Origin: Thermus arciformis
GTDB taxonomy: Bacteria > Deinococcota > Deinococci > Deinococcales > Thermaceae
Direction of reading: 5' to 3'
Length of the DNA: 64,000 nucleotides
NCBI RefSeq assembly: GCF_900102145.1
Contig: NZ_FNBC01000001.1
Location: 1-64,000 of the forward strand
Shown here: piece by piece, positions 51,715 through 64,000 of the stretch
How the letters are laid out: the number at the start of each line of letters is the position of its first letter
Position numbering within the stretch: the stretch's first letter is position 1
The notes under the pieces: model-generated
Told to the model about the DNA's origin: nothing
Databases searched by the model: none
Seen by the model: only the letters and a program-made list of their open reading frames with translations
Translations under genes and position numbers: made by a program

Positions 51715-53022
51715 GAGCCCAAAGCGGGCGTAGATGGCGTCCACGTGCCGGAGGAAGGGCTTGGGGTCAAAGAGGGCCCTCAGCTCCTCCCCCTTGAGGG
51801 GGTTCTCGGGGTCGGCCTCCAGGAGTTCCAGGAAGCTCCGCTCCTCCTCCCAGCTCCTTAGGGCGTTCCGCTGGACGAGGGCGTAGGCCTTGTCCCGGGA
51901 AAGGCCCCGGGCGATAAGGGCGTTTAGGACCTGCTGGGAGTAGACGAGGCCCCGGGTGAGCTCCAGGTTCCTGGCCAGGTTCTTTTCAAAGACCTCGAGG
52001 CCCTCGAGGATCCCCTTGAGGCGTCTTAAGGCGTAGTGGGCCAGGGTGGTGGCGTCGGGGAGGACGACCCGTTCCACGGAGGAGTGGGAGATGTCCCGCT
52101 CGTGCCAGAGGGCGATGTCCTCCAGGGCAGGCCCTAGGTACCCCCTTAGGAGCCTCGCCACCCCGGTGAGGTTCTCCAGGCCCACGGGGTTCTTCTTGTG
52201 GGGCATGGAGGAACTTCCCGTCTGCCCCTCGCGGAAGGGCTCCTGGGCCTCGAGGACCTCCGTGCGCTGGAGGTGGCGTAGCTCCACGGCCACCCGCTCT
52301 AGGTTCCCCCCCAGGAGGGCGAGGGCCGCCATGACCTCGGCGTGCCGGTCCCGGGGGACGACCTGGGTGGAAAGGGGCTCGGGCCTGAGGCCCAGGCGCC
52401 GGGCCACGTGGGCCTCCACCTCGGGGGGCACGTGGGCGTAGTTGCCCACGGAGCCCGAGAGCATGGCGACCCCGATGGTCTCCCGCGCCCGCTTAAGCCG
52501 TTCCTCGTCCCTTTGGAAGGCGGCGTAGAAGGAGAGGAAGCGGAGGCCGAAGCTCGTGGGCTCGGCGTGGACCCCGTGGGTGCGGGCGATGGCGGGGGTG
52601 TGCTTGTAGCGGAGGGCGAGGGCCCTAAGGGCCTCCTCCACCCCCTTAAGCTCCTCCAGGACGAGGCCTAGGGCCTCCACCAAGAGGGCGTTTTGCGCCG
52701 TGTCCACCACGTCCGAGCTGGTGAGGCCGAGGTGGAGGTAGCGCCCCACCTCCTCGTCCCCCGTCCACTCCACTAGGGCCCGGGTGAAGGCCACGAGGTC
52801 GTGGCGGGTTACCGCCTCAAGCTCCGCCACCCTTTGGGCGAAGGCGGCGTCCAGGGGCTTTTCCTCTAGCTTGGCGAGAAGCCTCGCCGAAAGGCCCCGC
52901 GGCACTTCCCCTAAGTTCTCCCAGGCCTCGAGGGCGTAGGCCTCCACCCGGGCCCACATCCGGTAGCGGCTTTCCTCCGACCAGAGGCGGGCCATCTCCG
53001 GCGTCTGGTAGCGGGCGATCAT
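51712..53022 (-). CDS. purB: Adenylosuccinate lyase
   Basis: PurB cleaves SAICAR and adenylosuccinate. The 436-residue protein begins MIARYQTPEMARLWSEESRY and has GLTSSDVVDTAQNALLVEAL, the catalytic histidine region ARTHGVHAEPTSFG and the signature GQTGSSSMPHKKNPVGLENL with the flexible-loop serine. The ATG at 53022 lies seven bases after TACCCT (minus strand, 53030-53035); an open extension to 53139 overlaps the plus-strand MNT gene. It is separated from the other purine genes by repeat D and the DUF433/DUF5615 pair. Confidence 0.96.
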   Translation of the reverse strand: MIARYQTPEMARLWSEESRYRMWARVEAYALEAWENLGEVPRGLSARLLAKLEEKPLDAAFAQRVAELEAVTRHDLVAFTRALVEWTGDEEVGRYLHLGLTSSDVVDTAQNALLVEALGLVLEELKGVEEALRALALRYKHTPAIARTHGVHAEPTSFGLRFLSFYAAFQRDEERLKRARETIGVAMLSGSVGNYAHVPPEVEAHVARRLGLRPEPLSTQVVPRDRHAEVMAALALLGGNLERVAVELRHLQRTEVLEAQEPFREGQTGSSSMPHKKNPVGLENLTGVARLLRGYLGPALEDIALWHERDISHSSVERVVLPDATTLAHYALRRLKGILEGLEVFEKNLARNLELTRGLVYSQQVLNALIARGLSRDKAYALVQRNALRSWEEERSFLELLEADPENPLKGEELRALFDPKPFLRHVDAIYARFGL

Positions 53023-53029
53023 GCCCTTT

Positions 53030-53055
53030 AGGGTACCAGGGAAGGGGGGTATACT
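53030..53055. promoter_or_regulatory. Divergent -10 boxes for purB and the MNT gene
   Basis: TACCCT on the minus strand (53030-53035) lies seven bases before the purB ATG. TATACT on the plus strand (53050-53055) lies 42 bases before the ATG at 53098. The plus-strand leader contains GGCCCCTTTCGGGGGGG, a small hairpin that includes the ribosome-binding site. Confidence 0.55.
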
Positions 53056-53097
53056 GGGAGCACGGCGGGGGTTAGGCCCCTTTCGGGGGGGTGAACC

Positions 53098-53385
53098 ATG
53101 AAGACCCTGGGCGGGATCCGGCGCATCCTGGCCCGGCACAAGCCGGAGCTTCGGGCGCGCTTCGGCGTGCGGGAGCTGGCCATTTTCACCCGGGGGGAAG
53201 CCACCCCCTTAAGCGACGTGGATATCCTGGTAGCGCTAGAACGCCCCCTAGGGTGGGAGATTGTGGACCTGCGCGATTACCTAGAAGCCCTACTGGGGCT
53301 TCCGGTGGACCTGCTGACCGCAGGGGCCTTGCGGCGCAAGCCGCACTTGTGGCAAGCGGTGCAAGAAGACCTGGTTCATGCCTAG
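53098..53385 (+). CDS. Minimal nucleotidyltransferase (MNT), signature damaged
   Basis: The 95-residue protein has the MNT fold of HEPN-MNT toxin-antitoxin systems, in which MNT inactivates the HEPN ribonuclease by AMP transfer. The usual signature is Gly-Ser followed by ten residues and Asp-x-Asp. Here the sequence is LAIFTRGEATPLSDVDILVA: Asp40 and Asp42 are present, but the Gly-Ser between Phe30 and Arg32 is missing, as if three codons had been deleted in frame. Nucleotidyl transfer is therefore doubtful. The partner gene that should follow is reduced to a remnant. Confidence 0.8.
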   Translation: MKTLGGIRRILARHKPELRARFGVRELAIFTRGEATPLSDVDILVALERPLGWEIVDLRDYLEALLGLPVDLLTAGALRRKPHLWQAVQEDLVHA

Positions 53386-53419
53386 GCGGAATGCGCGCCT
53401 CTTCATCCGGGCAGGGTGA
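53378..53419 (+). pseudogene. Remnant of a HEPN-type partner gene
   Basis: An ATG overlaps the end of the MNT gene, the position where HEPN toxin genes normally start. It opens a 13-codon frame, MPRRNARLFIRAG, then TGA. The first residues resemble the starts of HEPN proteins (Met-x-Arg-Asp/Asn-x-Arg-Leu-Phe), but the frame then runs into the convergent dioxygenase gene, so all of the HEPN domain is missing. A chance short frame cannot be excluded. Confidence 0.45.
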
Positions 53420-53981
53420 GGACGAAGGCCCCCCGGTACCCTTCCCCCTCCCGTTCCAGGCGGAGGAGGAGGTCCGCCCGGAAGAGGCCGTCCTGGCGGT
53501 TGTTCACCCGGGGCATCCCCCTTTCCCGGTAGGGCGGGAGGGCGTAGACCTCGCGCTGGACCTCCTCGGGGAAGAAGAGCTGGGTGGCGAAGCTCCGCCC
53601 TCCCGCCTCCACCCTTAGGTGCAGGTGGGGGGTGCGGCTTGGGTACCAGCCGGGGAAGAGGGTGAGGAAGGCCGCCTGCCCCTCCCCGTCCGTGCGCCGG
53701 AAGCCCCGGCAGAAGGTCCCGGGGGCGTTGACCCCGGAGTAGCGGCCCAGGGCGTCCGTGTGCCAGAGGTCCACCCGGGCGCCTTCTAGGGGCCTGCAGG
53801 CCCGGTCCCGCACGCGAAGGAGGAGGCGCAAGGGCACTCCGGGAAGCCCCTCCCTCAGGTCCTCCCGTTCGGGGACCTCCCTGAGGTAGTAGGGGCCTTC
53901 CGTGAGGGCCGGGGTGGGGGCGCAGGCCTGGCCCCGGGCCAAGGGCAGGAGGAGCATTCCCAAAAAGGCGCGCCGCTTCAT
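53403..53981 (-). CDS. Exported intradiol-dioxygenase-like protein
   Basis: The 192-residue protein has a signal peptide (MKRRAFLGMLLLPLARGQAC) and the intradiol ring-cleavage fold: VDLWHTDALGRYSGVN with one Tyr ligand, and FPGWYPSRTPHLHLRV with the second Tyr and two His ligands of ferric iron. All four putative ligands are present. Extracellular homologues exist in many bacteria without known catechol pathways, and the substrate is not known. The Cys20 could also be lipidated, though the context is not an ideal lipobox. It overlaps the YceI gene by four bases. Confidence 0.78.
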   Translation of the reverse strand: MKRRAFLGMLLLPLARGQACAPTPALTEGPYYLREVPEREDLREGLPGVPLRLLLRVRDRACRPLEGARVDLWHTDALGRYSGVNAPGTFCRGFRRTDGEGQAAFLTLFPGWYPSRTPHLHLRVEAGGRSFATQLFFPEEVQREVYALPPYRERGMPRVNNRQDGLFRADLLLRLEREGEGYRGAFVLTLPG

Positions 53982-54538
53982 TGGCGTTTAAGGAGGAGTT
54001 CCACCTCCAGCCGGATGCGGTTTTCCACGCTCAGGAGGATGGGCACCCGGGGCTGGACCAGCTTGAACTTCTCAAAGGGAAACTCCGTCTTCAGGAAGAC
54101 CCGCACCTCGTCGCCCTTGAACTCCGCTTCTCCCTCCCACACCACCTCCTCCGTGGCGTCCCGTATGGTGAGGTCCCCCACCACCTGGATGGCCGCCTTG
54201 CCGCTTTGGGGGAGGGGGTTGGGCAGGCCCCTCACCTCCTTGGGCCGGAAGGTGGCGGTGGGGAAGCGGCCGGTTTCTAGGGTGTTCTGCCGCAGGTAGT
54301 TGTCCCGCCGGGCCTGGTCGCTCCTAAGCTCCCTCAGGTCCACCACGAACTCCCCGCTCGCCCGCCCCCCCTGGAGCCGGACCTCCCCCCGGACCGCCTT
54401 GGTGGTGCCCACGGCGTCCGTTAGGCCAACGCCCACCAGCTGCTCCCGCACCCGGTAGCGGGCCTCCCCCGAGGCCACCTGGAAGGTCTGGGCCAGGGCC
54501 GGAAGGGAAAGGAGCGCCGCCCAGAGAAGCCAACGCAT
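53978..54538 (-). CDS. YceI-family periplasmic protein
   Basis: The 186-residue protein has a signal peptide (MRWLLWAALLSLPALA) and the YceI lipocalin-like fold: FQVASGEARYRVREQLVGVG, RDNYLRQNTLETGRFPTATF and VVGDLTIRDATEEVVWEGEA. T. thermophilus TT1927b, a YceI protein, binds a polyisoprenoid in its barrel. The ATG at 54538 follows AAAGGAGGTGAAG, a near-perfect ribosome-binding site; a GTG six bases upstream is unlikely. It is co-transcribed with the dioxygenase-like gene. Confidence 0.9.
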   Translation of the reverse strand: MRWLLWAALLSLPALAQTFQVASGEARYRVREQLVGVGLTDAVGTTKAVRGEVRLQGGRASGEFVVDLRELRSDQARRDNYLRQNTLETGRFPTATFRPKEVRGLPNPLPQSGKAAIQVVGDLTIRDATEEVVWEGEAEFKGDEVRVFLKTEFPFEKFKLVQPRVPILLSVENRIRLEVELLLKRQ

Positions 54539-54554
54539 CTTCACCTCCTTTACC

Positions 54555-54594
54555 GCTACGAAAAGCGTAGCAGGGCCAGGTTAGAGGCAGGTTA
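54555..54594. promoter_or_regulatory. Inverted repeat and direct repeat between YceI and HAD genes
   Basis: GCTACG (54555-54560), AAAAG and CGTAGC (54566-54571) form a perfect 6-bp inverted repeat. Upstream (minus-strand sense), CAGGTTA occurs twice, at 54577-54583 and 54588-54594, with an 11-bp period, one helical turn. Direct repeats of this spacing are typical binding sites for OmpR/PhoB-type regulators. It lies between the divergent yceI and HAD genes and could control either. Confidence 0.5.
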
Positions 54595-54619
54595 AAAGGC
54601 GGGGGCTTAGACTTGAGCT

Positions 54620-55279
54620 ATGGTCCGGGCCCTGACCTTTGACGTGGGGAACACCCTGATCCTGGCGAGCCCCCGCTTCTGGCTCCTGCCCTTTCTGGAA
54701 GAGCGGGGCCTGAGGCCGCGAGGGGACGTGCGCAAGGCGGCCCTCGAGGCCTTCCGCTTCTACGAGGAAAACCACCTGAAGGCCCGGGACCTGGAGACCG
54801 CCTTGGGCCTTTGGCGGGAGTTCCACCGCAGGCTCCTCGCGGGGATGGGCCTCGAGGACCACGCCGAGGCCCTTTCCCGGGAGCTCGTGGCCCGCTGGCA
54901 GGACCCCGCCACCTGGCCCCTCGCCCCGGGGGCGGAGGAGACCCTGAGGGCCCTCAAGGCCAAGGGGTACCCCCTGGCCGTGGTCTCCAACTGGGACGCC
55001 ACCCTGCCGGAGATCCTCGAGGCGGTGGGCCTCAGGCGCTACTTTGACCACCTCGCGGTGAGCGCCCTCTCCGGCTACGCCAAGCCCGACCCGAGGCTCT
55101 TCCAGGAGGCCCTGGCGGCCCTCGGGGTTTCCCCGGGGGAGGCGGTGCACGTGGGGGACGCGGAGGCCGACCTCCTGGGGGCGGAGGCCGCGGGGATGCG
55201 GGCCCTCCTCTTTGACCCCTTGGGGGAGAACCCCAAGGCCCTCTCCCGGCTCCAGGGGGTGCTAGACTACCTCCCATGA
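54620..55279 (+). CDS. HAD-superfamily hydrolase
   Basis: The 219-residue protein has ALTFDVGNTLIL as motif I (DxxNT, so the second Asp is Asn or shifted), LAVVSNWDATL (II), YAKPDPRLFQEAL (III) and VHVGDAEADLLGAEAAGMR (IV). It is of the DREG-2/haloacid-dehalogenase-like type. The substrate is unknown. TAGACT (54608-54613) lies six bases before the ATG, so it is probably leaderless. It overlaps the next gene by four bases. Confidence 0.82.
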   Translation: MVRALTFDVGNTLILASPRFWLLPFLEERGLRPRGDVRKAALEAFRFYEENHLKARDLETALGLWREFHRRLLAGMGLEDHAEALSRELVARWQDPATWPLAPGAEETLRALKAKGYPLAVVSNWDATLPEILEAVGLRRYFDHLAVSALSGYAKPDPRLFQEALAALGVSPGEAVHVGDAEADLLGAEAAGMRALLFDPLGENPKALSRLQGVLDYLP

Positions 55280-55641
55280 GCGTCCGGGCCGCCATCTGGG
55301 GGGAGAAGCAGGAGGCCATTGAGGCGAGCCTAAAGGCGGTGGACGAGGACCTCTTCCGCTACATCCGCGACTTCGCCTACGAGGAGGTCCTGGCCCGCCC
55401 CGGGCTGGACCTGAAGACCCGGGAGCTCCTCGCCATCACCGCCCTCATCGCCTTGGGTAGCCCCAAGGAGCTCGCCACCCACCTGGAGGGGGCCTTGAGG
55501 GTGGGGGCCACGGAACGGGAGGTGCGGGAAGCCATCCTGCAGTCCGCCCTCTTCCTGGGCTTTCCCCGGGCCCTGGCCGCCATGAAGCTTTTCCAGAAGG
55601 TGCTTAAAGGTCGTGGTGCTCCTCACGAGGGGGAAGGATAG
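55276..55641 (+). CDS. Carboxymuconolactone decarboxylase-family protein
   Basis: The 121-residue helical protein matches the AhpD/CMD family: LDLKTRELLAITALIALGSP and VREAILQSALFLGFPRALAA. It has no CXXC motif, so it is not a peroxidase-type AhpD. The catalytic role is unknown. The start overlaps the HAD gene and the end overlaps hemD by about 29 bases, so the C-terminal residues are less certain. No alternative stop exists. Confidence 0.75.
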   Translation: MSVRAAIWGEKQEAIEASLKAVDEDLFRYIRDFAYEEVLARPGLDLKTRELLAITALIALGSPKELATHLEGALRVGATEREVREAILQSALFLGFPRALAAMKLFQKVLKGRGAPHEGEG

Positions 55642-56293
55642 GGCGCTTCTTGCGAGGCTTGCCGCCCTCGGCATAGAGGCGGCGGAGGTGGCCCTTCTGG
55701 AGCAGGTGGACCTCCCCGCCTTTGCCCTCCTCCCCGCAAGGCTCCAGGAGGGGTGGGACTACGTGGCCGTGACCTCCAAGGAGGGGGCAAGGCGCCTCCT
55801 CCTTGCCTGGGAGGAGGCGGGCCGCCCCTTTCTGAGGGTGGCTGCCGTGGGGGAGGGCACGGCGGGGGTCCTGAGGGCGGGGGGGCTTCCCCCGGCCTTC
55901 CTGCCCCCACGGGCCACGGCCAAGGACCTGGCCCAGGGCTTCCCCGAGGCGAGGAGGGTCCTCTTCGTGGCCGGGGACCTGGCGGGGCGGGACCTGGAGG
56001 AGGGCCTTAGGGCGCGGGGGGTGGAGGTGGAGCGCCTCGAGGTCTACGCCACCCGGGAAAGGGCCCTCGCCCCAGAGGAGCGGGAGCTTTTGGAACAGGC
56101 CCAGGTGGTGGCCTTCTTCAGCCCAAGCGGGGTGCAGGCCTTCGCCCGCCACACGGAAAGGCGCCCCAAAGCGGCCGCCATCGGCCCGAGCACGGCCGAG
56201 GAGGCGAGGCGGCTCGGCTTCCCCGTGGTGGAGGCGGAAAGCCCGGGGCTAGAGGGGCTTTTTCGGGCCGTCCTCCGGGCCCTTGGGCGGTAG
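55613..56293 (+). CDS. hemD: Uroporphyrinogen-III synthase
   Basis: HemD closes hydroxymethylbilane to uroporphyrinogen III. The 226-residue protein has the weakly conserved two-domain fold: MVLLTRGKDRALLARLAALG, YVAVTSKEGARRLL, VAAVGEGTAGVLRAGGLPPA and AFFSPSGVQAFA, with AAIGPSTAEEARRLGF at the C-terminal hinge. HemD is poorly conserved, so the name rests partly on the next gene being hemA. The GTG start lies within the CMD-family gene. Confidence 0.82.
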   Translation: MVLLTRGKDRALLARLAALGIEAAEVALLEQVDLPAFALLPARLQEGWDYVAVTSKEGARRLLLAWEEAGRPFLRVAAVGEGTAGVLRAGGLPPAFLPPRATAKDLAQGFPEARRVLFVAGDLAGRDLEEGLRARGVEVERLEVYATRERALAPEERELLEQAQVVAFFSPSGVQAFARHTERRPKAAAIGPSTAEEARRLGFPVVEAESPGLEGLFRAVLRALGR

Positions 56294-56297
56294 GGGC

Positions 56298-56325
56298 TTA
56301 CGTCCCTACCCCCTTGGCGTATACT
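56298..56325 (+). promoter_or_regulatory. Promoter of hemA
   Basis: TATACT (56320-56325) lies 12 bases before the hemA ATG at 56338, with TTACGT 16 bases upstream (56298-56303) as a weak -35. So hemA can be transcribed independently of hemD. Confidence 0.5.
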
Positions 56326-56337
56326 CTTCCCCAGAAT

Positions 56338-57453
56338 ATGGCCCTGCCCCTCTACCTGGTGGGCCTTTCCCACAAGACCGCCCCCCTGGAGGTGCGGGAA
56401 AGGGCCGCCTTGGACCCGGTGGTGGCCCTCCCCGCCGCCCTTATGGCCTTGGGCAAGGGGGTGGTCCTCTCCACCTGCAACCGCACGGAGCTTTACGGGG
56501 TGGGAAGCCCCGAGAAGGCCAGGGCCTTCCTCCTGGAAAGGGGGGTGGCCCCCCGGCACCTTTACGTGAAGGAGGGGGTGGAGGCCCTGCGCCACCTCTA
56601 CCGGGTGGCCGCGGGCCTGGACTCCCTGGTGGTGGGGGAGGCCCAGATCCTGGGCCAGGTGCGGGAGGCCCTCTTCCTGGCCAGGAGGCAGGGCGCCACG
56701 GAAAGCCTCCTGGAAAAAGCCTTCCAGACGGCCATCGCCCTGGGCAAGCGGGCCCGGAGCGAGACGGGAATCGGGGCGGGGGCGGTGAGCGTGGCCTACG
56801 CCGCCTTGGACCTGGCCCTTGCGGTCTACGGGGACCTTTCCGGGCTTTCCGTGGCCGTCTTGGGGGCGGGGGAGATGGCGGAGCTCTTCCTCACCCACCT
56901 GAAGGCCCACGGGGTGGGGCGGGTTCTGGTGGTGAACCGCACGGAAGAACGGGCCAGGGCCTTGGCGGAGCGCTTTGGCGGCGAGGCCTTTGGCCTTTCC
57001 GGGCTTCCCCAGGTCCTCCGCCAGGCGGATTTGGTGGTGGCCTCGGCCGCCGCCCCCCACTACCTGGTGGGCCCTGAGGACCTGCCCAAGCGGGCCAAGC
57101 CCCTCTTCCTCATAGACATCGCCCTTCCCCGGAACATCCATCCCAGGGTGGGGAGCCTTCCCCACGCCTACCTCTACAACCTGGACGACCTGGAGCGCGT
57201 GGTGGAGAAAAACCGCAGGGCCCGGGAGGGGGAGGTGCCCAAGGTGGAGGCCCTCATTGAGAAGGCCCTCGCCGACTACCTGGAGTGGTACGCGGGCCAC
57301 CGGGTGCGGGAGGCCATCCGGGCCCTGCGGGAGAGGCTTTTCCAGGAAGTGGCCCAGGAGCTTCCCGGGGCCGACTTCCCCACCTGGCACAAGGAGGTGG
57401 GCCGCCGGGCCCATCCCCTGATCCTGGCCCTCAAGGCCCAGGCCCGGCCATGA
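56338..57453 (+). CDS. hemA: Glutamyl-tRNA reductase
   Basis: HemA reduces glutamyl-tRNA to glutamate-1-semialdehyde, the first step of C5 haem synthesis. The 371-residue protein has the catalytic cysteine in VVLSTCNRTELYG, LDSLVVGEAQILGQVREAL, the NADPH-binding VAVLGAGEMAELFLTHLKA and LFLIDIALPRNIHP. The ATG at 56338 is chosen because of the -10 position; an in-frame ATG at 56314 lies before the -10 box. The stop overlaps the next gene by four bases. Confidence 0.96.
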   Translation: MALPLYLVGLSHKTAPLEVRERAALDPVVALPAALMALGKGVVLSTCNRTELYGVGSPEKARAFLLERGVAPRHLYVKEGVEALRHLYRVAAGLDSLVVGEAQILGQVREALFLARRQGATESLLEKAFQTAIALGKRARSETGIGAGAVSVAYAALDLALAVYGDLSGLSVAVLGAGEMAELFLTHLKAHGVGRVLVVNRTEERARALAERFGGEAFGLSGLPQVLRQADLVVASAAAPHYLVGPEDLPKRAKPLFLIDIALPRNIHPRVGSLPHAYLYNLDDLERVVEKNRRAREGEVPKVEALIEKALADYLEWYAGHRVREAIRALRERLFQEVAQELPGADFPTWHKEVGRRAHPLILALKAQARP

Positions 57454-58202
57454 CCCCCGCGAGCCCTTTGGCCCTCCTGGGGGTGCTCCTCTTGGCCCTG
57501 GGGCTCTTCTGGCCCCGGGGGGCGGGGTGGGGGGCGTGGCTTTACCTGGGGGCGGCCTTGGCCGACGCCCTCGCCAAGGGGCCCTTTTCCGGCCCCGCCC
57601 AGCCCGCCCTCCTCCTGGGGGGGCTTCTTGCCCTCCGGGGGGAGACCCTGTGGCAGAGGCCCTGGCTCGCGCCCCTGAGGCGCTACCTCCTTCTCCTTTC
57701 CCTCCTCCTCGGGCTTTTCGCCCTAAAGGCCCTGCCCCACCCCAGGGAGGGGCTTTCCCCCTGGCTTGCCCTCCTGCACGGGGGGGCCTTTTTGGTGGCC
57801 TACCTGGCCCTGAGCGTGGGGGTGGGGGCCGGGGTGATGTGCGCCCTCCAGGACCTGCGCCTCAGGCGGGCCCCGGAGAAGGCGGTGAAGGGGGCTCCCC
57901 TTTGGAGCCTGCGCCGCCTGGAGCGGGGGTACCTCCGGGTGGGGTATCTGGCCACCACCTTGGGCCTGGGAAGCGGCATGGCCTGGGCCTTCGGCTACTT
58001 CGGAAACCCCTTGAGCCTAGACCCCAAGGAGGTTTCCGTCCTCTTGGGCTGGCTTTCCCTCACCCTTCACTTCCTCCTGGAGGAGAGGCTTCGGGGGCTT
58101 CCCCGGGCGGGGCTTCTCCTCCTGGCCTACGGCCTCCTCCTCTTCGCCTTCCTGGGGGCTCCCTTCCTGGCGTCCCGGCACCCCTCGAGGCTAGGGTTCT
58201 AG
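57450..58202 (+). CDS. Cytochrome c assembly-type (CcsA/HemX-like) membrane protein
   Basis: The 250-residue protein has about eight transmembrane helices and belongs to the CcmC/CcsA/HemX group. The usual WWD haem-binding motif is not evident, but histidines lie in LLHGGAFLVAYLALSVGVG and SLTLHFLLEERL, and the conserved LSLDPKEVSVLLGWLSLTLH region is present. Next to hemA this is the position of HemX, proposed to control HemA levels in Firmicutes; cytochrome c maturation is an alternative. The ATG at 57450 overlaps the hemA stop (ATGA). Confidence 0.78.
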   Translation: MTPASPLALLGVLLLALGLFWPRGAGWGAWLYLGAALADALAKGPFSGPAQPALLLGGLLALRGETLWQRPWLAPLRRYLLLLSLLLGLFALKALPHPREGLSPWLALLHGGAFLVAYLALSVGVGAGVMCALQDLRLRRAPEKAVKGAPLWSLRRLERGYLRVGYLATTLGLGSGMAWAFGYFGNPLSLDPKEVSVLLGWLSLTLHFLLEERLRGLPRAGLLLLAYGLLLFAFLGAPFLASRHPSRLGF

Positions 58203-58218
58203 ATATGTAAAGCTAGGC

Positions 58219-58264
58219 TTGACAGATTATAAAGCAGAAGTTACAATCCTCCACGAGGTGGAGG
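58219..58264 (+). promoter_or_regulatory. Near-consensus promoter with abutting palindrome
   Basis: TTGACA (58219-58224), a 17-bp spacer and TACAAT (58242-58247) make the strongest sigma-A promoter in the window. Directly after the -10 box comes CCTCCAC GAG GTGGAGG (58248-58264), a perfect 7-bp inverted repeat whose right half is also the ribosome-binding site and ends at the ATG at 58265. The palindrome spans the expected transcription start, so it could be a repressor operator, a translational hairpin, or both. Confidence 0.8.
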
Positions 58265-58540
58265 ATGTGGAGCCCGTGGTGGGACCCCGAGGCGGGAAAG
58301 GGGCGGCATGAGGCCCTCCTTCGCGAGGCCGAGTGGGAGAGGCTCCTCAACCCTGGCGGAGAGCAGGGCAAAGTCCACCCGCCAATCGTCAGCCTCCTTC
58401 GCGAGGCCGAGTGGGAGAGGCTCCTCAACTCCCTTCGCGTCCCTTGGCGCCTCAGGCTGGCCCGGGCGCTCCTTCGGTGGGCCCTGCGGCTTGCCCCGGA
58501 GGCCAAGCGGGAGCTTAAGGAGGTTTTCCATGGAGGATAG
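58265..58540 (+). CDS. Small protein with an internal 26-residue duplication
   Basis: The 91-residue product, MWSPWWDPEAGKGRHEALLR onward, is rich in Trp, Arg, Leu and Glu and has no predicted membrane segment. The 12-residue stretch LLREAEWERLLN occurs twice, 26 residues apart, because of an exact 37-bp DNA repeat. The C-terminal half (VPWRLRLARALLRWALRLAP) is basic and amphipathic. I recognise no family. It is the first gene after the strong promoter; GTGGAGG serves as the ribosome-binding site, and it overlaps the SHOCT-like gene by 11 bases. Confidence 0.6.
   Translation: MWSPWWDPEAGKGRHEALLREAEWERLLNPGGEQGKVHPPIVSLLREAEWERLLNSLRVPWRLRLARALLRWALRLAPEAKRELKEVFHGG
58315..58429 (+). repeat. 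Exact 37-bp direct repeat, 78-bp period
   Basis: Identical 37-bp units occupy 58315-58351 and 58393-58429, separated by 41 unrelated bases. Both are in the same frame and encode LLREAEWERLLN. The geometry (37-bp repeat, 41-bp spacer) matches that of a CRISPR unit, but the location inside a coding frame, the lack of further units and the absence of cas genes argue for an in-gene duplication with a foreign or diverged insert. Confidence 0.9.
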
Positions 58541-58898
58541 GCGGCGCGTATTGGAGATGGTGCGTTCGGGCGAGATCGGGGTGGAGGAGGCCTTGGCCCT
58601 CCTCGAGGCCCTGGAGGCGCGGCCCAAGGCCAAGGGGCCCTTCCAGGTTCTCAAGGTGCGGATCAACGCCTACGAGGAGGGCAAGCCCGTGCGGGTGAAC
58701 GTCAACCTGCCCCTGGCCCTGGCGGAGCTTTTGGAGGCCTTCCTCCCCCAGGAGGCCAAGGCCACCCTGGCGGGGAAGGGGGTGAACCTCAAGGACCTCC
58801 TCCAGGTGGTGCGGGAGGGGGTGCCCGAGGGGAAGCTCGTGGAGATCGCGGCGGAGGAGGAAGGCCACCCGGTGCAGATCCTGGTGGAGGTGGCGTGA
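58530..58898 (+). CDS. SHOCT-like domain protein
   Basis: The 122-residue protein begins with a SHOCT-like helical motif, RRRVLEMVRSGEIGVEEALA, and continues with a beta-rich region (FQVLKVRINAYEEGKPVRVN, then LPLALAELLEAFLPQEAKAT). Such N-termini occur in YvlB/LiaX-type envelope-stress proteins and in DUF2089 proteins. The ATG at 58530 is preceded by TAAGGAGG, spacing 6; a long open extension upstream is out of register with the strong ribosome-binding site and reads the 37-bp repeat in another frame. It overlaps the preceding gene by 11 bases and the next by four. Confidence 0.75.
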   Translation: MEDRRRVLEMVRSGEIGVEEALALLEALEARPKAKGPFQVLKVRINAYEEGKPVRVNVNLPLALAELLEAFLPQEAKATLAGKGVNLKDLLQVVREGVPEGKLVEIAAEEEGHPVQILVEVA

Positions 58899-59152
58899 TC
58901 CCCTTGCGGCCCCGGTTCCTCTACCTCCGGGTGCGGGGGCCTTTTCCCTTGCCTCTTTTCCTGGCCCTTCCCCTCTTCGCCCTGGAGTGGGGCCTTCTCC
59001 TCGGCCTTTTCCTCCTCAGGACCCGGGCCCTCCTTCGGGGGAAGGCCTTAAGGACGCCCCTGGGGGCGGTCTTCGCCCTGAGGCGGCTTCCTCCTTTGGC
59101 GCTTTTGGAGCTGGAGGTGGAGGGGATAGGGGTAAAGGTGGGCGTATGGTGA
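58895..59152 (+). CDS. Small membrane protein of the SHOCT/DUF2089 operon
   Basis: The 85-residue product starts from GTG (MIPLRPRFLYLRVRGPFPLP) and has one or two hydrophobic segments (LFLALPLFALEWGLLLGLFL), followed by a basic stretch (RTRALLRGKALRTP) and a hydrophobic end. No family is recognised. It is coupled to its neighbours by four-base (upstream) and seven-base (downstream) overlaps, which supports it being a real gene. Confidence 0.65.
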   Translation: MIPLRPRFLYLRVRGPFPLPLFLALPLFALEWGLLLGLFLLRTRALLRGKALRTPLGAVFALRRLPPLALLELEVEGIGVKVGVW

Positions 59153-59517
59153 TCCGGCCCCTTCCCACGCGCTGCCCGGCCTGCGAGGGGCCCTTGGCGG
59201 TGAAGGCCCTCTTCTGCCCCGCCTGCGGCACCGAGGTGCACGGGCGCTTCGCCTTAAACGAGTTCGCCCTCCTCCCCAAGGAGCACCTGGACTTCCTGCG
59301 GCTTTTCGTGAAGACCCGGGGGAACCTCAAGGAGGTGGAGCGGATCCTTGGGGTCTCCTACCCCACGGTGCGGGCCCGGCTGGACGCTCTCCTCAAGGCC
59401 CTGGGGTACGAGGGGGAGGACGAGGGGGAAGACCGCCTACGGGTCCTGGAGGCCCTAAGGCGGGGGGAGATCAGCGTGGAGGAGGCGGTGGCCCGCTTGC
59501 GGGAAGGGAAAAGCTGA
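59146..59517 (+). CDS. DUF2089 protein: zinc ribbon plus HTH, candidate regulator
   Basis: The 123-residue protein has a zinc ribbon (CPACEG and CPACGTE near residues 10-32) and a helix-turn-helix (KEVERILGVSYPTVRARLDA) around residues 65-85. At the end is the same short helical motif as in the SHOCT-like protein (LRRGEISVEEAVARLREG). This is the DUF2089 architecture and suggests a DNA-binding regulator of its own operon. The last 47 bases overlap the 3' end of the histidine kinase gene on the other strand. Confidence 0.82.
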   Translation: MVIRPLPTRCPACEGPLAVKALFCPACGTEVHGRFALNEFALLPKEHLDFLRLFVKTRGNLKEVERILGVSYPTVRARLDALLKALGYEGEDEGEDRLRVLEALRRGEISVEEAVARLREGKS

Positions 59518-60877
59518 AGGCCGTGCCCTTTCCTACCTCGCTTTCCACCCAGATCTCGCCCCCGTGGGCCTCGAGGATGGCCTTCACGATGGCGAGGCCG
59601 AGGCCCGACCCGCCCCGTTCCCGGTCCCGGGCCTTGTCCACCCGGTAGAAGCGCTCAAAGAGGTGGGGGAGGTGCTCCTCGGGGATCCCTTCCCCGTCGT
59701 CCTCTACCCGGACCACCGCCTTGTCCCCCAGGTCAAAGGCCTTGAGCCAGACCCTTCTGGCCCCCGCCTTGAGGGCGTTGGAGACCAGGTTGGCCAGGAC
59801 CTGGTGGAGCCGGTCGGGGTCCCCCAGGACGTGAAGGCCCTCGGGGGCCTCCACCAGGATCTCCCCGTCAAAGCTTTTGGCGAACTCCTCCCGCACCTCC
59901 TCCAGGAGGTCCCGCACCCTGAGGGGCACGGGGCGGATCCGCCAGGCGCCGCTTTGCGAGAGGTCCAGGAGGTCGGAGACGAGCTTGCCCATGCGCTCCG
60001 CCTCCCGCCGCACGATTTCCAGGCTTTCCCGCTGGGCCTCCGTGAGGGGGGTGCGCCGGAGCAGGTAGCCCACGTGCCCCAGGATGGCGGTGAGGGGGGT
60101 CCTGAGCTCGTGGGAGGCGTCCTGGAGGAAGCGGGTCTGGTCCTCAAAGGCCTTTTGCATGCGGGAGAGCATCCCGTTTAGGGCCCGGACCAAGGCGGCC
60201 ACCTCGTCCTTGCCCTCGGGCTCGGGCAGGGGCTCGGGGCGCTCAGGCATGGCCTCGGCCTTGCGGGCCACCCATTCCAAAGGCTCCAGGGCCCGGGCCA
60301 CCAGGCTTCGCGCGAGGAGGAGGGAGAGGAGGAGGACGAGGAGGGCCGTGCCCGCGTAGATGCGGGCGAACTGGCTTAAGGTGGCCTCGAGGCCCTCCGT
60401 GGGCTTGCCCACCAGGAGGGCCCCCTTCCACACCGCCCCGGAGAGGTTGACCTCCACCTTGCGGGCGTAGACCAAAAGGCGCAAGGGGGCGCCCTCCCGG
60501 GGAAGGGCCACTTGGGCCCAGACCTCGCCCTTTTCCAGGAGGGTCCGGTACTCGGCCTCGCCCAAAAGCAGGCGCCCCTGCCCCAGGGCGGGGCTCCTTT
60601 GCAGGCTGATGCCCCCTTCCTTGGCCAAGAGGGCCGGGTCCTCCTCGGGAAGGAGCTGGAGCTCGGCGTAGAGGCTTGGGGGGAGGCCGGCCTCCAAGAG
60701 GGCCTGGCCTCCGAGGTTCAAAAGGCGCACCACCTGGTTGCTGGCCTCCAGGAGCTCGCTCCGGAGGTTCCGGTAGAGGAAGCTCCTCAGGAGGCCTTCC
60801 AGGGCGAAGCCCAGGGCCACCAGGGTCACCAGGAGGAGCCCCGCGGTGAGGAGGGTGATGCGGGTTCTGAGGGTCAT
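59471..60877 (-). CDS. Sensor histidine kinase
   Basis: The 468-residue protein has a transmembrane helix at residues 8-28, a periplasmic sensor region to about 168 and a second helix (YAGTALLVLLLSLLLARSLV). A HAMP domain, the H-box FLQDASHELRTPLTAILGHV and the ATPase motifs (LVSNALKAG; VEDDGEGIPEEHLPHLFERF; GGSGLGLAIVKAILEAHGGE) follow. It forms an operon with the response regulator 24 bases upstream. Its stop is 47 bases inside the convergent DUF2089 gene. The signal is unknown. Confidence 0.93.
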   Translation of the reverse strand: MTLRTRITLLTAGLLLVTLVALGFALEGLLRSFLYRNLRSELLEASNQVVRLLNLGGQALLEAGLPPSLYAELQLLPEEDPALLAKEGGISLQRSPALGQGRLLLGEAEYRTLLEKGEVWAQVALPREGAPLRLLVYARKVEVNLSGAVWKGALLVGKPTEGLEATLSQFARIYAGTALLVLLLSLLLARSLVARALEPLEWVARKAEAMPERPEPLPEPEGKDEVAALVRALNGMLSRMQKAFEDQTRFLQDASHELRTPLTAILGHVGYLLRRTPLTEAQRESLEIVRREAERMGKLVSDLLDLSQSGAWRIRPVPLRVRDLLEEVREEFAKSFDGEILVEAPEGLHVLGDPDRLHQVLANLVSNALKAGARRVWLKAFDLGDKAVVRVEDDGEGIPEEHLPHLFERFYRVDKARDRERGGSGLGLAIVKAILEAHGGEIWVESEVGKGTAFSFSLPASGPPPPPR

Positions 60878-60901
60878 GCCGTGGGGGCCTTCTGCCGGGC
60901 C

Positions 60902-61576
60902 TCAGTCCTCCCGGAGCACGTACCCCACGCCCCGCACCGTGTGGATGAGGCGGCGCTCCCCCCCCGCCTCCAGCTTCTTGCGCAGGTAGCCGATGTAGAC
61001 GTCCACCACGTTGCTCCCCCCCTGGTAGCCCGGCCAGACCTTCTCCTCAATCTCGTAGCGGCTGAAGACCTTGCCGGGGTTCTTGGCGAGGAGCTCCAAA
61101 AGCTCAAACTCCTTGTTGGAAAGCTCTATGCGGCGCCCTCCCCGGAAGACCTCCCGGCCCTCGAGGTTGATGATGAGGTCCGCCACCCGGATCTCCCCGG
61201 TGATGGCCGGGGTGACCCGGCGGAGGTGGGCCCGCACCCGGGCGAGGAGCTCCTCAATGGAGAAGGGCTTCACCAGGTAGTCGTCGGCCCCCGCGTCCAA
61301 CCCCGCCACCTTGTCCTCCACCCGGTCCTTGGCGGTGAGGATGAGGATGGGCACGTTGGAGGTCTTGCGGATGCGCTTGGCCACCTCAATCCCGTCCATG
61401 ACGGGGAGCATCAGGTCCAGGATCACCAGGTTGGGGTTCACCTCCCGGAACTTGGAAAGCCCGGTGATCCCGTCGTGGGCCACCTCCGTGCGGTAGCCCT
61501 CGGCCTGGAGCTCAAGCTCAATGAAGCGGGCGATGTCCTTCTCGTCCTCCACGATGAGGATCAGAGGGGGTTCCAT
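60902..61576 (-). CDS. OmpR-family response regulator
   Basis: The 224-residue protein has the receiver domain ([20 protein letters not shown], phospho-acceptor Asp in [13 protein letters not shown], Lys in [11 protein letters not shown]) and the winged-helix DNA-binding domain ([10 protein letters not shown] to [20 protein letters not shown]). The ATG lies six bases after TACCAT (61583-61588, minus strand). A perfect 16-bp palindrome just upstream of that box may be its own operator. The partner kinase follows. Confidence 0.94.
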
Positions 61577-61592
61577 GCCCCCATGGTACTTA

Positions 61593-61608
61593 CTTTCTCA
61601 TGAGAAAG
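61593..61608. promoter_or_regulatory. Perfect 16-bp palindrome upstream of the response regulator
   Basis: CTTTCTCATGAGAAAG is a perfect palindrome placed immediately upstream of the -10 box (61583-61588, minus strand) and ending one base before the stop of the hemolysin-III-type gene. Its AT-rich sequence stands out in this GC-rich region. It is a good candidate for an operator in the -35/spacer region of the two-component promoter. Confidence 0.65.
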
Positions 61609-62226
61609 CTAGGTGTAGAGGCTCAGGACTGCCAGGTACATGAAGGCGCTCCCTAGGAGCACCAAGAGGTGCCACACCCCGTGGAACCCCACCCGCCCGG
61701 GCCAGGGGTCGGGGCGCTTCCTCGCGTAAACCCAAGCCCCCAGGGTGTAGGAGAGGCCGGAGAGGGCCATGAGGGCGAAGGTGAGGGGAGGAAGGTCAAG
61801 CCTGGGCAGGAAGAAGAGGGAAAGCCACCCCAGGGCCAGGTAGGCCAGGGTGTAAAGCCACCTGGGGGCCTTGAGGTAGAGGAGGCGGAAGCCCACCCCG
61901 AGGAGGGCGAGCCCCCACACCAGGGCGAGGGCGAAGGTCCTCTCCCTTCCCTCCAGCCCTTTGGCCAGGAAGGGGGTGTAGCTCCCCGCGATGAAGAGGA
62001 AGATGGCGGCGTGGTCCAGCCTCCTGAGCCAGGCGAGGCCCCTTTCCCCCAGGTGGAGGCTATGGTAGAGGGCGCTCGCCCCGAACATCAGGGCCATGGT
62101 GAGGCCGAAGGCGAGGAGGGCGGGCCAGGCCTCCTTAGGGGCCAGGAGGAGGAGAAGGAGGCTTCCCAGGAGGGCGAGGGGCACCCCGAGGGCGTGGCTT
62201 AGGGCGTTGAAGGGCTCGCGGACCAT
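61609..62226 (-). CDS. Hemolysin III / TrhA-family membrane protein
   Basis: The 205-residue protein has seven transmembrane helices and the PAQR-like motifs of the hemolysin III family: MVREPFNALSHALGVPLALL, FGASALYHSLHL, LRRLDHAAIFLFIAGSYTPF and VGFHGVWHLLVLLGSAFMYL with the histidines that bind zinc in PAQR relatives. TrhA influences membrane fluidity in E. coli; the role here is inferred. It lies between ppsA (eight-base gap) and the response regulator. Confidence 0.85.
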   Translation of the reverse strand: MVREPFNALSHALGVPLALLGSLLLLLLAPKEAWPALLAFGLTMALMFGASALYHSLHLGERGLAWLRRLDHAAIFLFIAGSYTPFLAKGLEGRERTFALALVWGLALLGVGFRLLYLKAPRWLYTLAYLALGWLSLFFLPRLDLPPLTFALMALSGLSYTLGAWVYARKRPDPWPGRVGFHGVWHLLVLLGSAFMYLAVLSLYT

Positions 62227-62234
62227 GCCCCAGG

Positions 62235-63999
62235 CTACCCGATCCCGAGCCTCCTTTCCACCTCGGCCACCTCCCGCACCGTGCGCAGGAGGGCGTCGGG
62301 GTTCAGGCTTAGGGAGTCTATGCCCCGTTCCACCAGGAAGGCGGCGAACTCGGGGTAGTCGGAGGGGGCCTGGCCGCAGATGCCCACCTTCTTCCCCTTG
62401 GCGTGGGCCTTCTCAATGAGCATGGCCGCGAGGCGCTTCACCGTCTCCCGCCGCTCGTCAAAGAGGTGGGCCACCCGCTCGGAGTCCCGGTCCAGGCCCA
62501 GGGCGAGCTGGGTGAGGTCGTTGGAGCCGATGGAGAAGCCGTCAAAGAGCTCGGCGAAGGCCTCGGCCTCGAGGACGTTGGAGGGGATCTCCGCCATCAC
62601 GTAGACCTCGAGGCCCCCCTCCCCCCGCCTAAGCCCCCCCTCGGCCATGGCCTCCAGGACCTTCTTTCCCTCCTCCGGGGTGCGGCAGAAGGGGACCATG
62701 ACCATGAGGTTCTTGAGGCCCATCCCCTCCCTGACCCGCTTCACCGCGGCCACCTCCAGGAGGAAGCCCTCCTTGTAGTCCGGGTGGTAGTAGCGGCTCG
62801 CCCCCCGCCACCCCAGCATGGGGTTTTCCTCCTTGGGCTCAAAGAGGTGCCCCCCGAGGAGGCGGGCGTACTCGTTGGTCTTGAAGTCGGAGAAGCGGAG
62901 GAGAACGGGCCTCGGATAGAAGGCGGCGGCGATGAGGCCGATGCCCTCGCTCAGGCGCTCCACGAAGTAGGCCCGCTTGTCGGGGTAGGCCTCGGTGAGC
63001 TCCTCCACCTGGCGGCGCACTTCCTTGGGGAGGGTTTCAAACCGGGTGAGGGCCAGGGGGTGGACGCGCACGTGGCTTGCGAAGACGAACTCCATGCGCA
63101 AAAGCCCCACCCCGTCCGTGGGAAGGAGGCTCGTCCTCAGGGCCTCCTCCGGGGTGCCCACGTTCACCAGGATCCGGGTCCGGGTCTTGGGCAGGGTCTC
63201 GGGGCGGATCTCCTCCACCTCAAAGGGGAGCCTTCCCCGGTAGACCACGCCCCGCTCCCCCTCGGCGCAGGAGACCGTGACCTCCTCTCCCTCGGGGACG
63301 CTCCGGGTGGCCCCCACCGCCCCCACCACCGCGGGCACCCCCAGCTCCCGGGCCACGATGGCCGCGTGGGAGGTGCGCCCGCCCCTTTCGGTGACGATGG
63401 CCGCCGCCTTCTTCATGATGGGCTCCCAGTCGGGGTTGGTGGTCTCCGTGACCAGGACCTCCCCCTCCTGGAAGCGGTCCATCTCCCTCGGGTCCCTGAG
63501 GACGCGGGCCCGGCCCGCGGCGATGGCCTCCCCCACGGCGAGGCCTTCCGCCAGGACCTCGCCCCGCTTGAGGAGGCGGAAGACGCGGAGGACGGGGGCC
63601 TTCTGGGAGTGGACGGTCTCGGGCCGGGCCTGGAGGACGAAGAGCTCCCCCGTGGGGCCGTCCTTGGCCCACTCAATGTCCATGGGGGTGGGGCTTCCCC
63701 GCTTCCTGGAGTAGTGGTCCTCAATCTTCAGGGCCCAGTCGGCGAGGCGGAGGACCTCCTCGTCCTTTAGGGCAAAGCGGTTCCTTAGGTAAGGCGGCGT
63801 GGGGCGGTTCTTGAGCCGGCCTTCCCTGGGGTCAAAGGCCAGGGTGAGCTCCTTGGCGCCGAGCCTTCGGTAGACCACGGCCCGGAAGCCCTCCCGGAAG
63901 GTCTCCTTGTGCACGTAGTACCCGTCCGGGATCACCCGGCCCTGGACGAGGTTCTCGCCCAGGCCGTAGATGGCCGTGAGGTAGACGAAGCCCTGGTGA
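62235..63999 (-). CDS. ppsA: Phosphoenolpyruvate synthase (3' part; start lies beyond the window)
   Basis: PpsA makes phosphoenolpyruvate from pyruvate and ATP in gluconeogenesis. The frame is open to the window edge, giving about 588 residues of a normal ~790. The visible part covers the end of the ATP-grasp domain (GLGENLVQGRVIPDGYYVHK), the phosphohistidine domain (GGRTSHAAIVARELGVPAVV) and the PEP-utiliser barrel. The barrel carries GVGLLRMEFVFASH, MAEIPSNVLEAEAFAELFDG and the catalytic Cys in VGICGQAPSDYPE. The GTG at 63935 is internal, because homology continues upstream. Confidence 0.95.
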   Translation of the reverse strand, partial: HQGFVYLTAIYGLGENLVQGRVIPDGYYVHKETFREGFRAVVYRRLGAKELTLAFDPREGRLKNRPTPPYLRNRFALKDEEVLRLADWALKIEDHYSRKRGSPTPMDIEWAKDGPTGELFVLQARPETVHSQKAPVLRVFRLLKRGEVLAEGLAVGEAIAAGRARVLRDPREMDRFQEGEVLVTETTNPDWEPIMKKAAAIVTERGGRTSHAAIVARELGVPAVVGAVGATRSVPEGEEVTVSCAEGERGVVYRGRLPFEVEEIRPETLPKTRTRILVNVGTPEEALRTSLLPTDGVGLLRMEFVFASHVRVHPLALTRFETLPKEVRRQVEELTEAYPDKRAYFVERLSEGIGLIAAAFYPRPVLLRFSDFKTNEYARLLGGHLFEPKEENPMLGWRGASRYYHPDYKEGFLLEVAAVKRVREGMGLKNLMVMVPFCRTPEEGKKVLEAMAEGGLRRGEGGLEVYVMAEIPSNVLEAEAFAELFDGFSIGSNDLTQLALGLDRDSERVAHLFDERRETVKRLAAMLIEKAHAKGKKVGICGQAPSDYPEFAAFLVERGIDSLSLNPDALLRTVREVAEVERRLGIG

Positions 64000-64000
64000 C

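Follow-up and report, generated by a model that had tools for sequence, protein, structure and literature searches.

An operator-like array in the promoter of a DUF2089 operon of Thermus arciformis and its possible place in a reduced envelope-stress module

A reduced relative of the Toastrack/DUF2089 operon

In the passages on DUF2089 in the comparative study of Ravi et al. 2024 (PMC11237479), the protein is described as a zinc ribbon joined to a helix-turn-helix (HTH) and a SHOCT-like domain and is placed in a four-gene context with Toastrack, for which a Lia-like signalling role is proposed; the same passages describe no operator or regulon. An operon of Thermus arciformis, located in a stretch of 64,000 nucleotides (the window), resembles this PSP-like neighbourhood as set out there in that it holds DUF2089 and a SHOCT-like protein together, and relatives of the operon carry SHOCT-Toastrack (PF13349). 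It differs from the published context by lacking Toastrack, PspC and LiaI-LiaF-TM and by having two members, ORF1 and gene 3, without a family match. Judged from its sequence, the window operon is a reduced form of the putative Toastrack/SHOCT/DUF2089 membrane-stress module already known from comparative genomics.

The operon consists of four overlapping genes on the forward strand (58265-59517): ORF1 (58265-58540), the SHOCT-like gene (58530-58898), gene 3 (58895-59152) and the DUF2089 gene (59149-59517). hemA followed by a hemX/ccsA-like gene lies upstream of its promoter, and a response-regulator/kinase pair lies downstream on the opposite strand (59471-61576). Both this gene order and the strong promoter had been recognised in an earlier note made from the sequence alone, and both hold: the sigma-70-type promoter TTGACA-N17-TACAAT (58219-58247, forward strand) scores 11/12 and is the only sigma-70-like site of at least 9/12 within 52000-64000, where shuffled sequences give 0.4.

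ORF1, a small helical protein of 91 amino acids without a match in Pfam or NCBIfam, belongs to a phylum-wide family whose members usually have about 62-66 residues. It is longer here because of a private 78-bp insertion, a 26-residue internal duplication (repeats LLREAEWERLLN) that is single-copy in relatives; the "duplicated small protein" of the earlier note therefore describes the window but not the family. Gene 3 (85 amino acids, third in the operon) is hydrophobic, as had been noted, but weak alignments link it to the C-terminal domain of the SHOCT-like protein and to soluble-looking Firmicutes proteins from the same operon position, so that it is at most a putative membrane protein. Neither gene 3 nor ORF1 has a Pfam match to PspC or LiaI-LiaF-TM.

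The SHOCT-like protein (122 amino acids) combines a PF22746 helical hairpin (E 1.3e-9) with a beta-beta-alpha-beta-beta domain. Its AlphaFold2 model (pLDDT 75.7) has helices H2-13 and H18-29, and a Foldseek search with the model gave weak, scattered matches, chiefly to ribosomal proteins. The N-terminal hairpin is shared with LiaX/YvlB, which join a SHOCT-like N-terminus to DUF4097, and the NCBIfam LiaX model aligns to residues 1-29 (E 2.7e-4, far under its cut-off). However, no DUF4097 match is present in the window protein, and LiaX is controlled by LiaFSR and not by DUF2089.

The DUF2089 protein, likewise of 122 amino acids, comprises a zinc ribbon (residues 9-40; PF22747, 6.2e-12, 45.8 bits), an HTH (residues 42-88; PF09862, 4.8e-24, 84.2 bits), both above the gathering score, and a SHOCT-like tail (residues 94-118) that matches PF22746 with an E-value of 2.2e-4 and 21.1 bits, under the gathering score of 27. 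The motif common to this tail and the N-terminus of the SHOCT-like protein, to which the earlier note had drawn attention, is real but already named as the Pfam domain "SHOCT-like_DUF2089-C". All three parts are seen in the AlphaFold2 model of DUF2089 (47 sequences, pLDDT 87.6), with C-terminal helices H90-104 and H110-119. No solved structure was found by sequence search for DUF2089 or the SHOCT-like protein. Between phyla the HTH region (RGNLKE-E, SY-PT-R) shows little or no variation, and the closest solved folds to the HTH of the AlphaFold2 model, weak matches with E > 0.1, include LuxR/GerE/VraR-type regulators and ECF sigma region 4. Unlike those regulators, DUF2089 has no receiver or ligand domain, and it carries a zinc ribbon and a SHOCT-like tail. 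In several Deinococcota (L099, L100, L102, L181, L200, L206) the zinc-ribbon cysteines are missing from DUF2089, and zinc is therefore probably not always required.

An operator-like array over the core promoter

An alignment of 57 Deinococcota promoters on TTGACA places TGTAAA 13 bp before the -35, with TATAAA following within the spacer and TTTAYA overlapping the -10. The conserved array, TRTAAA-N7-TTGACA-N3-TATAAA-N7-TTTAYA, consists of two 19-bp dyads in a 22-bp register over the -35, spacer and -10. The A at -9 and the A at +13 are invariant and the T at -13 is present in 54/57 promoters, and none of the three positions is part of the -35 or -10; a T at -21 from TTGACA, within a partial upstream half-site, occurs in 56 of the 57. 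In the window the two dyads span 58206-58246 on the forward strand. Dyad 1, TGTAAA-GCTAGGC-TTGACA (58206-58224), has the -35 hexamer as its right half-site, dyad 2, TATAAA-N6/7-GTTACA (58228-58246), covers the spacer and -10 and is 1 bp shorter than in relatives, and a degenerate upstream half-site, TTCTAG (58197-58202), overlaps the stop codon of the hemX/ccsA-like gene.

The array is present upstream of the operon across Thermus, Meiothermus, Calidithermus, Oceanithermus-like genera and Trueperaceae, and it is retained where the first gene is instead the SHOCT-like gene (L037, L068, L103) or Toastrack (L095, L099, L100). Some of this conservation is promoter conservation, because part of the array is core promoter, and closely related genomes among those compared are not independent. 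A promoter-derived matrix scored most Deinococcota loci extending to the operon promoter at about 23-64 bits and some lower, against a shuffle maximum of about 5, but this is not an independent test since many of the same genomes supplied the training promoters. Several Thermus species match the array pattern only with at least 3 mismatches. In the 2.44-Mb genome that includes the window, dyad 1 is the sole match to TGTAAA-N7-TTTACA with at most 1 mismatch; with up to 2 mismatches the single-dyad search is at noise level (4 sites, 4 in the control), so that only the former match was used.

Searching 111 genomes with TRTAAA-N7-TTGACA-N3-TNTAAA-N7-TTTA and at most 2 mismatches returned 52 distinct sites, while the reversed pattern returned 0. 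DUF2089/ORF1 operons account for 44 of the 52; 39 sites lie within 5 kb of DUF2089 and five open ORF1 operons on contigs without a DUF2089 gene. Two sites, both in genus g2, lie before a paralogous ORF1-Toastrack operon, and one (L241, genome G097) has no recognisable downstream gene. DrrA-like ABC exporter genes follow another five sites, of which four are in genus g13 and one is in family f5 (Trueperaceae). At these loci (L138, L139, L140, L148, L240) the full array stands before the gene of the exporter ATPase, an ABC-2-type permease gene is also present at the first four, and L240 comes from a different family of the phylum than the others. With a shorter pattern, an array-like site was also seen before a gene for a small hydrophobic protein (L143, G049), LiaI-type-like by eye and without a family match, and a weaker one, which may be chance, before an ammonium-transporter/PII-like gene pair named by eye (L144, G108).

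Outside the Deinococcota, SHOCT-like proteins and, in many cases, Toastrack are encoded near DUF2089 at loci of Chloroflexi, WOR-3, UBP7 and Firmicutes. At the corresponding promoter position, a period of 21-22 bp is seen in DUF2089 promoters from these and other non-Deinococcota loci: in 16 non-Deinococcota promoters, self-similarity at 21 bp was 0.381 compared to 0.299 (sd 0.015) in controls, a value reached by 0 of 1000 control sets. These promoters were anchored on their best array match, picked with a matrix of 22-bp register, and the biased lag would therefore be 22 and not 21; self-similarity at lag 22 was not significant in them. The L-N7-R-N3-L-N7-R geometry is kept in UBP7 and WOR-3, and half-site sequences outside the Deinococcota differ from those within. 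Two Firmicutes plasmid loci (L153, L154) have the operon in common with Deinococcota but not the half-sites. A limited full-text literature search for DUF2089 found no paper on its DNA target by title, and, judged by that search, the array, its exporter targets and the periodicity outside the Deinococcota seem to be new.

Proposed autorepression and competing explanations

The likely switch of this operon is the repeated array within the promoter rather than the palindrome that follows it. Because the sites coincide with the -35 and -10 of a promoter close to consensus, repression is suggested; autorepression by DUF2089 is favoured because no other operon protein is DNA-binding and the HTH of DUF2089 is strongly conserved, its nearest, weakly matching folds being of the LuxR/GerE/VraR and sigma region 4 types. 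Computation establishes the array, how far it is conserved, which genes it precedes, the domain composition and the loss of Toastrack in the window; we infer DUF2089 as the binder of the array, repression as the sign of its action and the nature of the signal. Probably, DUF2089 is a tandem-dimer autorepressor of a reduced envelope-stress module, relieved via SHOCT-like partners. Its dimers would bind DNA through the LuxR/sigma4-type HTH, cooperatively at two tandem dyads that lie 22 bp apart on the same helix face over the -35, spacer and -10, and would repress the operon itself and, in some relatives, also the DrrA-like ABC exporter. Dyads of 19 bp suit a dimer, and the proposed action resembles that of NrdR, a small repressor with a zinc ribbon that recognises two boxes in helical phase at a promoter, although half-sites and target genes differ and the ATP-cone of NrdR is not among the best 25 of 31 Pfam matches of the DUF2089 protein.

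At the membrane, the SHOCT-like tail of DUF2089 could contact the SHOCT-like hairpins of its partners, namely the SHOCT-like protein and, in operons that have it, SHOCT-Toastrack, and envelope damage would alter these contacts so that repression of the strong promoter is released. Both the SHOCT-SHOCT contact and the signal are suggested by domain co-occurrence, and the signal step is held with less confidence than the explanation as a whole. The self-regulated envelope or stress system envisaged in the earlier note gains indirect support from the phylum-wide array and from the published DUF2089-Toastrack neighbourhoods (PMC11237479), although not with the palindrome as its site.

This palindrome does exist as claimed, CCTCCAC-GAG-GTGGAGG at 58248-58264 ending on the ORF1 ATG, or, with 8-bp arms, TCCTCCAC-GAG-GTGGAGGA at 58247-58265, on the forward strand between the -10 and the start codon. 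Such repeats are not rare in the GC-rich 64-kb window, which contains 4 with perfect 8-bp arms and a 3-nt loop and 100 with arms of at least 7 bp and loops of 3-8 nt. Among 24 Thermus promoters, scored for repeats anchored to both ends of the interval from the -10 to the start codon, perfect inverted repeats of 5-7 bp occur only in the window, the T. scotoductus-type group and L042/L050, the loci outside the window being L033, L036, L044, L042 and L050, and about half of the species have no comparable repeat. The arms read CCTCCAC in the window, and three different arm sequences (CCTCCAC, CCTTCAC, CCCTG) occur in the whole set.

Perhaps the palindrome acts as RNA, with a hairpin in putative hemA-hemX read-through transcripts hiding the Shine-Dalgarno so that ORF1 would be translated solely from transcripts of its own promoter, as these should start inside the 5' arm and cannot form the hairpin. 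A hairpin is predicted at -13.7 kcal/mol (z -3.25) when the 5' arm is included and not when it is left out; this and the compensatory variants CCTCCAC/GTGGAGG, CCTTCAC/GTGAAGG and CCCTG/CAGGG are consistent with such a role, but the repeat is limited to a minority of Thermus species and the transcription start is deduced from the -10. We regard this as unlikely; it could coexist with autorepression by DUF2089.

Alternatively, a different regulator could occupy the array, for instance a response regulator such as that of the downstream pair, and DUF2089 would then have another target, as ownership of the operator is itself deduced. That the array tracks DUF2089 operons at 44 of 52 sites and that the HTH and the promoter periodicity recur in other phyla make this improbable, although a co-conserved second regulator would fit both observations too. 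It is similarly improbable that DUF2089 binds the array as an activator. Many of the LuxR-type domains that its HTH resembles are activating and the spacer in relatives is 18 bp, one above optimal (17 bp in the window), but the sites coincide with the -35 and -10 instead of preceding them, and the promoter already scores 11/12, which fits repression.

The palindrome as the DUF2089 operator was rejected as very improbable: it is placed at the expected transcription start and has similar perfect counterparts in a few Thermus species, but it is absent from about half of the 24 promoters, the corresponding stretch outside Thermus has no half-site in common, and where the palindrome is present its half-site changes, which does not fit a single DNA-binding protein. 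The earlier note had named lack of conservation upstream of DUF2089 operons, the pattern found here, as what would refute its proposal that DUF2089 reads the palindrome.

Operon erosion and the role of DUF2089

DUF2089 is found above the Pfam cut-off in 25 of 27 Thermus genomes searched, and in seven Thermus species (L033, L034, L039, L043, L044, L045, L047) ORF1 and the SHOCT gene are separated by a full-length SHOCT-Toastrack gene. In other Deinococcota the equivalent gene matches PF13349 (Toastrack, DUF4097); the Thermus copies match PF22746 only and were assigned by position and similarity. The window operon has no Toastrack gene, and comparison of the genes shows that it has been deleted in this strain. 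Its SHOCT start region is Toastrack-gene-like at 25-27/30 bases and then SHOCT-gene-like at 21-28/30, which fits recombination between SHOCT-like reading frames as a possible cause. In another Thermus genome (G026; L054, 4884-5240) the array and most of the operon are deleted, and a DUF2089 HTH without its zinc ribbon is joined to upstream hemX sequence.

DUF2089 could represent a distinct class of membrane-coupled transcription regulators that recognise an array with a period of 21-22 bp, superimposed on the core promoter of the Toastrack/SHOCT operon to which they belong, and control a tiny regulon including a DrrA-like ABC exporter, with the geometry kept across phyla while half-sites drift; we see this generalisation as evenly balanced between holding and failing. 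The proposal that Toastrack/DUF2089 is a functional analogue of the phage-shock and Lia systems had come solely from gene order. With a concrete operator-like array, confined almost entirely to these operons and a single type of ABC exporter, it becomes directly testable in a laboratory thermophile, and the recurrent decay of the operon within Thermus, with Toastrack lost in the window and the array and most of the operon in G026, provides natural knock-outs. DUF2089, a domain of unknown function in many phyla, thereby gains a predicted DNA target.
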